In this document: positions 13,964-16,830 of the stretch, one piece after another | Layout: each line of letters starts with the position of its first letter | How positions within the stretch are numbered: position 1 is the stretch's first letter | Origin: Aquificaceae bacterium | GTDB lineage: Bacteria; Aquificota; Aquificia; Aquificales; Aquificaceae | DNA: 19,150 nucleotides | Direction of reading: 5' to 3' | Assembly: GCA_015487365.1 (NCBI GenBank) | Contig: WFPT01000101.1 | Coordinates: 1-19,150 of the forward strand | Position numbers and translations under genes: made by a program | The notes under the pieces: model-generated | What the model saw: only the letters and a program-made list of their open reading frames with translations | The model's database searches: none | What the model was told of the DNA's origin: nothing

Positions 13964-15331
13964 TCAAACGGTCCTTGAAAAGGTTAGCTCCTTCTTATTC
14001 CTTAAATACTTATCAAAGACCATGGCTACGTTTCTTACCAGGAGCCTCCCAAGCTCAGTTATACTGATTCTGTCCTCCTTTAAGACCACAAGGCCGTCCC
14101 TTTCCAGCTCCTCTAACTCCTCCAACTCCCTTGAAAAGTAATCCTTAAAGTTTATGGAGAAGGCCCTTTCTACCTTTTTAAAATCAACCCCCAAGTTGCA
14201 CATAATGTCCATAATAACCTCCCTCCTTATGAGGTCGTCCTCGTCCATGATATAACCCCTGAAAGTAGGAAGCTTTCCTTCGTCTATGGCAAGGTAGTAG
14301 TGCCTTAAAGTCTTGTAGTTTTGAAAGTAAGAGTCCTTTAAGGTTCCAATGGAGGTTGCACCTACCCCTAAAAGCTCTACCCCCTTTCTGGTGGTGTAAC
14401 CCTGAAAGTTCCTCCAAAGCTCACCTTTCCTTTGGGCCAAGGTTAGCTCGTCCTCGGGTTTTGCAAAGTGGTCCATACCTATAAAGACGTAACCTCCTTC
14501 TTGAAAGAGTTCAACAGCACTTTTTAACATTTTTAGCTTTTCTTCGGGCTTTGGTAGGAGGTTTTTATCTATCTTCCTCTGTAAGGGTTTTAACCAGGGA
14601 ACGTAGGCAAAGTTAAAGACCGCAACCCTTTCCGGTGAAAGCTTTAAGGTAAATTCTAAGGTATTCTTAAAGTTTTTTGGGTTTTGGTTAGGTAGGCCGT
14701 AAATTAGGTCTATGTTTATAGAGTTAAAACCCTCCTCCCTAAGCCAGTCCATAACCTTTAACATAAGCTCTTTGCTTTGGAACCTGTTTATGGCCCTTTG
14801 AACCTCCTCGTTTATGTCCTGCAACCCCATGGAGATTCTGTTAAAGCCAAGCTCCTTTAAGGTTTTTACGTAATCCCTTGTAAGGAACCTTGGGTCAAGT
14901 TCAATAGAAATTTCCGCACCTTCTGTAAAGGAAAACCTCTTTAAAAACTCTTCCATAAGCTTTCTTAACTCCTCCTCCGTCAAAAAGTTTGGGGTTCCAC
15001 CACCAATATGAAACTGGTCTATTTTAAGCTCATTACCTAAGTATTTTTCAAGGAGGCTTAACTCCTTAAACAGATACTGCAAATACCTCCCACTTATATC
15101 CCTCCTCTTAGTTATCATAACGTTACAACCGCAGAACCAACAGGCACTTTCACAAAAGGGTATGTGAATGTAAAAGGAAAGGAGGGACCTCCTTCTGTAG
15201 AGCTCGTTAAGTTTCCTTTCGTAATCCTTATAGGTTATACTTTCTTTAAATTCGGTGGCGGGGGGGTATGAGGTGTAGCGGGGACCCGGCCTATCGTATT
15301 TTTTTATAAGCTTTTCATCAAAGACAACCAT
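13964..15331 (-). CDS. hemN: Oxygen-independent coproporphyrinogen III oxidase (radical SAM)
   Basis: Radical-SAM enzyme that oxidatively decarboxylates coproporphyrinogen III to protoporphyrinogen IX in heme synthesis without oxygen. From the ATG at 15331 the protein has 455 residues. The cluster motif is [15 protein letters not shown], giving Cys60, Cys64 and Cys67 plus the HemN-type fourth Cys69. The N-terminal [11 protein letters not shown] is the HemN signature that separates true HemN from Hem[11 protein letters not shown] and the GLPNQN region follow, and the C-terminal HemN domain is present. An ATG ten codons earlier (15361) is possible, but its extra residues do not match the family and would cover promoter-like DNA (TATATT at 15347-15342). 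No Shine-Dalgarno sequence is visible. First gene of the run hemN-atpC-lipoprotein-rimM-corA-rnr. Confidence 0.93.
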
Positions 15332-15371
15332 AGCACTATTAAATATAGTCCCGTAGTCCAAAAGATTATTT

Positions 15372-15480
15372 TATGATTTTCGTTCAAAAATTTAATATAA
15401 GTTACATCATCTGATAAAAATCATAGCAGATTTTTTCTTAGAGAATCAAGGGTTAGAGCGTTTTCATGAGGAAAATCATA
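15372..15480. repeat. Three copies of a 9-bp word, AAAATCATA, one inverted
   Basis: AAAATCATA occurs on the plus strand at 15417-15425 and 15472-15480 and on the minus strand at 15380-15372. The first and third are extended to GAAAATCATA. Start-to-start spacings are 45 and 55 bp. The inverted pair flanks an AT-rich core just upstream of hemN. They could be operator half-sites; chance in AT-rich DNA is also possible. Confidence 0.4.
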
Positions 15481-15574
15481 GAAAAAATAGGGGGTATGGG
15501 GTATATTAAAAAAGGGGCTCCTTGGCAACTGAATAGGGAAAGTGCTCCAAAAAAGGTCAAAAAGGCCTAAAAGG

Positions 15575-15588
15575 GCCCTAATTAGGGC
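15575..15588. repeat. 14-bp perfect palindrome
   Basis: GCCCTAATTAGGGC is an uninterrupted palindrome of 14 bp, preceded by the shorter palindromes AGGCCT and GGGCCC at 15563-15578. It has the form of a dimeric regulator site. It lies about 240 bp before the hemN start and 400 bp before the HEPN-like gene, so its target is uncertain. Confidence 0.5.
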
Positions 15589-15613
15589 AACAGATGGGGT
15601 TTTTACTTTCTCT

Positions 15614-15634
15614 AAGCCTTGATTTTCAAGGCTT
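15614..15634. repeat. 9-bp stem hairpin without a T-tract
   Basis: AAGCCTTGA (15614-15622) and TCAAGGCTT (15626-15634) form a perfect 9-bp stem with a 3-nt loop. No T-run follows on either strand, so it is not a typical intrinsic terminator. It may be part of the neighbouring structured RNA or a protein-binding site. Confidence 0.45.
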
Positions 15635-15646
15635 TAAGATGGACCC

Positions 15647-15680
15647 TTGCAATCCCTAATGTGCCGGATGGAGTTGCAAC
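15647..15680 (+). repeat. Solitary CRISPR-repeat-like unit
   Basis: The 34-bp segment begins TTGCAATCCCTAATG and ends GATGGAGTTGCAAC. Its middle and end resemble, from memory, the CRISPR direct repeat of Aquifex aeolicus (shared words CCTAATGT, CCG, TGGAGTTG and a final AAC). The ends carry complementary TTGCAA words, as partly palindromic repeats do. No second intact copy follows at a spacer-like distance and no cas gene is in the window, so this is a lone or decayed unit, not an array. Confidence 0.4.
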
Positions 15681-15916
15681 ACTTTGGTGTCAGATTTTTC
15701 TGTTGGGTAGCGTTTTATAAATAACAGGATGGTGGAAAAGGGAAAAGGCAAAAATGCCCTAGGCCGGTGGCCCCTACGGGCTGTATTTACTCCGGCGCTG
15801 GTCGGGCGGCCCGCCGGGACGGGAGGTGGGGGTGTCGGGCTCAGGCCTTGGGGACCCTCTTGCGTGGGTTGCTGGATAATTCCAGCCCTACTGTCTTGTA
15901 TCAGAGGGTGTTGCAA
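15674..15916 (+). ncRNA. Putative structured non-coding RNA (GC-rich block)
   Basis: Positions 15756-15853 are about three quarters G+C by hand count, far above the flanks, a usual mark of structured RNA in thermophiles. Helices I can draw: 15757-15765 with 15844-15853 (one bulge); 15771-15777 with 15826-15832; 15792-15797 with 15812-15817, continued by 15800-15803 with 15808-15811; 15854-15860 with 15903-15909; and 15871-15876 with 15881-15886. A 9-bp inverted repeat (15674-15682 and 15908-15916) could close the whole; it competes for 2 nt with one helix. Several pairs are G-U on the plus strand and would be C-A on the minus strand, so plus transcription is favoured. Codon composition does not suggest a protein. 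Signatures of tRNA, tmRNA, SRP RNA and RNase P RNA are absent. It could also be a leader element of the next gene. Confidence 0.5.
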
Positions 15917-15949
15917 TCCCCTAAAAAAAAATAGGTGATGGGTAGCAAC
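15911..15949 (+). repeat. Degraded second copy of the repeat-like unit
   Basis: It starts with TTGCAATCCCCTAA and ends with GATGGGTAGCAAC, resembling both ends of the unit at 15647-15680. The centre is replaced by a run of nine A residues. The two units start 264 bp apart in the same orientation and bracket the GC-rich block. With mismatches and a different length (39 versus 34), relatedness is likely but not proven. Confidence 0.35.
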
Positions 15950-15984
15950 ATGTCTATACTTTCAAGCCTAAATTAATTCCCGTT

Positions 15985-16830
15985 ATGGGTAAAAGGGAAG
16001 TAAAGATTTCTCTTCTTTTGGAAAGCCTTAAAACTTTGGAGAAGGCTTATAGGGAGCTCAGGTTAAACTCCTCAAAGGATTTAAAGGAGCCTGCGGTTAA
16101 GGATAAACTAAGGTCTCTAATAAACCTTTCCTTTGAGTCCTTTATGAGGATTTGTAGGCACCTTAGTGTAGTCTTTTCCATAAAAAACAGGGGTAAGGAT
16201 TGCCTCATAAGACTCTCTGAGTTTTTGAATTACTCGGACTTAGAAGGGGTTAAGAGGATAAGCCAATACTACTATGAATATAGGGATTTAAGTAAGGAAG
16301 TGGATGAGGAAAGTTTAAGGGAGGTGGTTAATACCTCTTTGAAGGTCTTTAAGGAGCTGGCAAGGGAGGTGGTAGAGTTTGTAAAGAGGGAAACTAAAAA
16401 CCCCTACCTTATAGACTTTCAATTGCTGAGGGAAAAGGAAAGGCACATAGCTGAATCCTTAAAGAGGATAAACTTTATAATTTCAAGGGGCTTTGAGGAA
16501 TTTTCCAAGGAGCCCATGTATTACGACAGGGTTAAATACTTTTACATGGTAGCCTACGATAGCCTCTTGGACATATGCCTTCACCTGGCTCCCAAGTTTG
16601 GTATAAAGGGAGTTTCAGAGGATTGTCCCTTAAAGCTGATAGAAGGGGGAATTCTCCCTCAAAGTCTGAGGGAGGATTTAAAAAGCCTATACTTACTAAA
16701 AGTTAAGCTACTAAACGACTGGGACGTTCCAAAGGAAGAGCTCTATGAAAGATTAAGGAGTGTGGAGGAAACCTTTAAAAAGACCTTAAAGGCTTTGGCC
16801 CTTTACCTTAAAAGTTTTTTACGTAGTTAA
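15985..16830 (+). CDS. Tandem HepT/HEPN-like protein lacking the catalytic RxxxxH motif
   Basis: A 281-residue all-helical protein that I read as two HepT (DUF86)-like domains, about 5-135 and 147-279. The halves resemble each other: FESFMRICRHLSVVFSIK (50-67) parallels YDSLLDICLHLAPKFGIK (191-208), each followed by a DC word, a helix and a terminal helix. The second half has the DUF86 layout, with LIEGGILPQSLREDLKSL before the active-site position. There the usual RNxxxHxY reads KVKLLNDW (239-246), and the first half has RDLSKE (100-105), so neither has the R-x4-H of HEPN ribonucleases. No nucleotidyltransferase (MNT) partner gene is adjacent. Likely a non-catalytic RNA-binding or scaffolding protein; this is inference. 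ATG 15985 has no clear Shine-Dalgarno sequence. Its end overlaps aroC by 23 bp, tail to tail. Confidence 0.6.
   Translation: MGKREVKISLLLESLKTLEKAYRELRLNSSKDLKEPAVKDKLRSLINLSFESFMRICRHLSVVFSIKNRGKDCLIRLSEFLNYSDLEGVKRISQYYYEYRDLSKEVDEESLREVVNTSLKVFKELAREVVEFVKRETKNPYLIDFQLLREKERHIAESLKRINFIISRGFEEFSKEPMYYDRVKYFYMVAYDSLLDICLHLAPKFGIKGVSEDCPLKLIEGGILPQSLREDLKSLYLLKVKLLNDWDVPKEELYERLRSVEETFKKTLKALALYLKSFLRS

Follow-up and report, generated by a model that had tools for sequence, protein, structure and literature searches.

Does a compact, GC-rich stretch of DNA between two genes of an Aquificaceae bacterium encode a structured RNA of its own, or does it owe its appearance to another kind of locus? 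It belongs to a window of 19,150 nucleotides, the whole stretch of DNA that was analysed, which constitutes contig C101; the genome assembly is fragmented (947,586 bases in 197 contigs, 76% complete). The original prediction had placed a free-standing structured RNA in a large intergenic gap of this window, with a core of about 75% G+C and a 9-bp inverted repeat enclosing it. These elements are present: the gap spans 623 bp (15362-15984) and is flanked by a minus-strand hemN-like gene and a plus-strand HepT-like gene, G+C reaches 65% or more per 100 nt within 15724-15908, with a peak of 75%, and the arms of the inverted repeat match. The unit is not simply free-standing, as the gap is a CRISPR leader-and-repeat locus. 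We consider it probable that this locus derives from CRISPR, being either decayed or put to another use, and that it carries a GC-rich insert specific to the lineage, which is possibly an RNA. The features are as follows:

13964..15361, minus strand: hemN-like gene, one border of the gap
15436..15732, plus strand: block shared with contig C133 at 87% identity, covering the leader, R1 and about 50 nt past R1
15479..15507, plus strand: possible promoter TAGAAA-17-TATATT, weak (9 of 12 consensus positions)
15516..15535, plus strand: boxA-like antitermination motif GGCTCCTTGGCAACTGAATA, which also precedes 16S rRNA and CRISPR arrays, both in the own genome and in relatives
15614..15634, plus strand: leader hairpin AAGCCTTGATTTTCAAGGCTT, recurring in other leaders
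15646..15680, plus strand: R1, leader-proximal CRISPR repeat of 35 nt, recognised from the class pattern, the C133 copy and the array repeats of relatives
15674..15682, plus strand: closing inverted repeat, 5' arm TTGCAACAC, equal to the 3' end of R1 plus 2 nt
15724..15908, no strand assigned: GC-rich island, peak 75% per 100 nt, absent from C133 and with no relatives in the searched genomes
15816..15839, plus strand: G-quadruplex-capable run GGGACGGGAGGTGGGGGTGTCGGG; a simple pattern has no other match in the window, whichever strand is scanned
15908..15916, plus strand: closing inverted repeat, 3' arm GTGTTGCAA, equal to 2 nt plus the 5' end of R2
15910..15949, plus strand: R2, eroded CRISPR repeat of 40 nt resembling a terminal repeat, recognised by a shuffle test against three array repeats
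15985..16830, plus strand: gene for a HepT-like protein, the other border of the gap, conserved in the family

Two CRISPR repeats and the closing stem

The closing stem that had been reported is the 3' end of R1 paired with the 5' end of R2. The pairing that had been offered as evidence of an RNA fold thus exists, but its arms are the ends of two CRISPR repeats. R1 belongs to a 35-nt repeat class with inverted ends; because members of this class start with TTGCAA and end with TTGCRAC, neighbouring repeats can pair end to end, and this pairing is complete where the repeat ends with TTGCAAC, as R1 does. The class pattern was found in four of the 64 family genomes, namely the own genome (two copies) and three of one other genus, while the reversed pattern had no match in any of the 64. 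The class forms arrays in the genomes G005, G067 and G070, with a period of mostly 71-80, and boxA leaders precede the arrays in all three. R1 is identical to the copy on contig C133 at 32 of 35 positions. A search of genome contigs with the R1 pattern and one of viral contigs with the R2 pattern gave no match.

R2 begins with GTTGCAATCCCCTAAAAAA, as compared to GTTGCAATGCCCTAAAAAA in G067, and when it was aligned with the array repeats of G067, G005 and G070, none of 1000 shuffles scored as high in each case. It is eroded in its 3' half, and the last repeats of the G005 arrays are eroded likewise. The CRISPR reading has to contend with a merely moderate likeness of R2 to R1, which 14 of 1000 shuffles equal or better, and with the distance between the two, whose starts lie 264 nt apart with a 229-nt interval between them. 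Further repeats sought between R1 and R2 did not rise above shuffled sequence (as good a score was reached by 20 to 199 of 200 shuffles). In R1 and R2 the locus has two repeats of an array-forming class. Since near-identical, regularly spaced repeats with unique spacers of even length were not found, R1 and R2 being different from each other, we describe it as CRISPR-derived rather than as a working array; the shortened leader and the two divergent repeats with no detected spacer units likewise argue against a working array.

The closest known counterparts are the family arrays of G005, G067 and G070 with 35-nt repeats of the form TTGCAAT..CCCTAA..TTGCGAC, which share with the window the boxA motif, the leader hairpin, the repeat class and an eroded last repeat. 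The window differs from them in the lack of regular repeat-spacer units, in the shorter leader and in the 229-nt GC-rich interval. We propose that the locus most likely originated as a small array of the 35-nt class which would have decayed by losing its regular spacer units.

The leader, its boxA-like motif and related copies

The window leader can be aligned with those of the true G005 and G067 arrays, and the alignment takes in the CTTGATTTTCAAGG hairpin directly before the repeat; it is thus homologous to true-array leaders, as is expected of a functional array. Three of its features count against the CRISPR reading: the distance from boxA to the repeat is about 130 nt in the window versus 156-158 in the true arrays of the class, the TTGATAA stretch of the true-array leaders is missing as judged by eye, and the promoter is weak. 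The promoter candidate has its -10-like hexamer just 8 nt from boxA, and sites of this strength number three in the region versus 1.1 expected. As the leader region is repeated and the assembly fragmented, a misassembly where leader and island join is possible.

boxA, an antitermination signal of rRNA operons, is described upstream of CRISPR arrays in a passage of PMC7862264 (citing Stringer et al. 2020), and the motif of the window is of the same kind as in that account. We surveyed 40 loci hand-picked from matches with up to five mismatches: a 16S start follows downstream in 12, a repeat array was detected in 13, eight are cut by a contig end and seven fall into none of these groups. At least one CRISPR repeat is present in six of these seven, and in the seventh a single degenerate repeat was recognised by eye. 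The motif precedes 16S rRNA with no more than one mismatch in three genera (g1, g4 and g6) and also precedes CRISPR arrays there (loci L085, L086, L089, L094, L098, L106 and L110-L112); looser matches precede 16S in other genomes (L097, L114 and L117). In the own genome it stands, with one mismatch, before the 16S rRNA gene on contig C94 (L098). As GGCTCCTTGGCAACTGAATA is found before 16S rRNA and in CRISPR leaders alike, it fits the boxA pattern, and it may act as a functional antitermination element. A study by Stringer and colleagues, published in eLife in 2020, reportedly deals with boxA both in rRNA operons and in CRISPR leaders. A search for boxA together with Aquifex and CRISPR turned up nothing related in the parts of the literature that it covered.

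Related leader sequence occurs elsewhere in the own genome. The copy on C133 lies at a contig end and has lost most of boxA, and the GC-rich core is absent from it. C133 ends within 79 bases identical to the window leader (15436-15514; L021, G000:C133), as at an assembly break caused by a repeat. Two short leader pieces recur on C122, C132, C137 and C73, and one of them on C94: C122 is a true CRISPR array with 30-nt repeats (GTTCCTAATGTGCCGTTGTGGAATTTAAAC), C132 has the same leader followed by one recognised repeat, C137 and C73 stop inside the leader, and C94 continues into 16S rRNA. In the genome G003, the locus L078 (G003:C1:37346-38646) consists of a boxA leader and one degenerate repeat, not followed by an array, a layout that resembles the window locus. 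Like the window, the single-repeat leaders of C132 and L078 have a boxA leader, one repeat and then non-array sequence; they differ from it in belonging to other repeat classes and in that no GC island was seen in them.

The own genome also has cas genes, as a functional array would require: cas3 and cas4 on C43 score above the NCBIfam cut-offs, and a cas1 fragment there (at least the gene start) has a type I-B model as its best match, below the cut-off. Cas enzymes could possibly process a transcript of the locus. Between cas3 and cas4 lies a short frame resembling TsaC/Sua5 (threonylcarbamoyladenylate synthase; L156, G000:C43, 2373-2933), also below the NCBIfam cut-off.

We propose that transcription would start from the leader on the plus strand and that boxA would sustain the processivity of RNA polymerase, as it does for transcripts of rRNA and CRISPR loci. 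The ends of R1 and R2 would then pair into the closing stem, and the GC-rich island between the repeats would be carried as a lineage-specific insert on the leader transcript.

The nature of the GC-rich island

Array decay does not explain the island, and this counts against the CRISPR-derived reading as a full account. It is the highest GC content in 238,709 bp of the own genome (42 sequences, mean 39.3%), and it starts close to position 15732 or so, where the homology with C133 stops. Quite possibly, it is foreign or accidental DNA devoid of function that fell between the two repeats, as would be in keeping with a composition unlike that of the host, with the end of the C133 homology near its start and with the lack of conservation in the searched genomes. 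A comparison of the island DNA with 135 other genomes of the phylum, no congener among them, yielded nothing beyond one 21-bp match. As against this, no donor emerged, the phage and plasmid searches having given short chance-level matches only and a scan of viral contigs for exact 24-mers of the island no match; moreover, the non-coding islands of such GC content are otherwise RNA loci in the sequence that we examined.

That last observation leads to the tentative alternative that the island is a genuine lineage-specific structured RNA gene, which lies in the transcription unit of the CRISPR leader or has taken it over. The next-highest GC window of the own genome, at 69%, is 5S rRNA, the only other island above 65% in the 238.7 kb, and four further islands at exactly 65% are all in long open frames. 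In 800 kb of the relative G003, in stretches chosen to include two rRNA operons, every one of the 32 islands with 70% GC or more falls in a known RNA locus (30 in rRNA operons, one in tmRNA and one in a tRNA cluster); with the cut-off at 65%, RNA loci account for 28 of 30 merged islands, the other two being in long open frames. The A. aeolicus genome has a GC content of 43% and its known ncRNAs average 66%, by the figures given in part of an Aquificales survey (PMC4227106). In this family, GC content is a good guide to RNA genes. The proposal of an RNA gene also draws on boxA, which marks untranslated transcripts in the surveyed loci, and on the two listed frames over the island, neither of which has a Pfam domain; a protein-coding island was rejected on this ground. 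It is weakened by the absence of the island from the C133 copy, by the above search of the 135 genomes and by the lack of an Rfam match.

The Rfam search had been named as a check in the original prediction, and no Rfam 15 family matched at its gathering score. Model searches agreed that the sequence matches none of tRNA, tmRNA, SRP, RNase P or 6S RNA, and neither tRNA nor tmRNA was found anywhere in the window. A fragment of rRNA is unlikely, as Rfam gives no rRNA match in the gap and the island has no DNA match in the relatives, which carry rRNA genes. The structural RNA genes of the Aquificales (6S, SRP, tmRNA and rRNA) resemble the island in their high G+C against an AT-richer genome; the island differs from them in having no sequence or model match and no excess of folding at 37 C.

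Folding speaks both for and against the RNA gene. Internal helices had been predicted, and at 37 C they do not exceed chance: relative to shuffles, the core (15745-15870) has a z of +0.85 (plus strand) and +0.36 (minus strand). A preference for the plus strand had likewise been expected; the whole (15674-15916) gives -1.85 and -2.55 on the two strands, and the plus strand is not favoured given its composition. When the closing repeat is held fixed in the shuffles, the excess of the whole at 37 C drops to a plus-strand z of -0.16, and we count an interior that is no better than shuffles at this temperature in favour of the CRISPR-derived reading. At 80 C, the whole reaches a z of -4.08 when shuffled all together and -2.91 when shuffled in three segments, with none of 100 shuffles as stable in either case; both values favour the original prediction. 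With the closing repeat held fixed, the plus strand at 80 C is weakly better than shuffles, with a z of -1.44, and seven of 100 shuffles are as stable. If quadruplexes are allowed at 37 C, the whole likewise beats all 100 shuffles (z -3.51), and with the closing repeat fixed the value is -1.85, seven of 100 being as stable.

Known RNAs of G003 served as the yardstick. Nine overlapping 126-nt windows of the island have z values of -0.15 to -2.86 at 80 C, and their median of -1.16 is no weaker than that of 24 GC-rich windows of rRNA and tmRNA (-0.89), in line with an RNA gene. The same known-RNA windows have a median of -2.04 at 37 C, where a z of -0.1 or higher is found in six of the nine overlapping island windows versus two of the 24, which speaks against it. 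A 6S control folded on the correct strand gave a z of -2.48.

A bolder and, in our estimate, improbable reading holds that the CRISPR leader and repeat pair have been co-opted for the expression of a single long, GC-rich structural RNA, in which boxA would provide processivity, the repeats would serve as closing stem and Cas6 cut sites, and a 229-nt body with a quadruplex-capable run would replace the spacers. That the island is a divergent 6S RNA is so improbable that we reject it: its length is not far off and the own assembly lacks 6S by the Rfam model, but at 76% completeness that gene may simply be missing, a lineage-specific model from 15 relatives gives the island 3.8 bits versus 60-134 for three held-out relatives, and no match to any of the 21 window proteins falls within about 1.5 kb of 18 6S loci of relatives, with HepT as the positive control.

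The HepT-like gene next to the locus merits separate mention. Its product has a HepT domain match in the C-terminal part and matches in 62 of the 64 family genomes (E up to 0.01), one of the 62 being weak; it apparently belongs to the core genes rather than being a mobile toxin. Being conserved in the family, it is probably not cargo of the CRISPR-derived locus. We considered it as a toxin partner of the locus and think this unlikely, given the matches in the family and neighbours that are not shared in 14 loci of relatives: within about 1.5 kb of the HepT-like gene, they contain no counterpart of any of the other 20 proteins of the window. Thirteen of these 14 loci lack any 100-nt window of 70% GC, and the remaining one reaches this value more than 1 kb downstream of the gene. 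A search of genome contigs with the HepT-like protein gave no confirmed relative.

The case illustrates how the remains of a CRISPR locus can be mistaken for a structured RNA of unknown type, since neighbouring repeats of this class are able to pair by their ends. In a family of a deep bacterial branch, one boxA-like motif is common to rRNA operons and CRISPR leaders. If the island is expressed, a CRISPR transcription unit would have been reused for another RNA.
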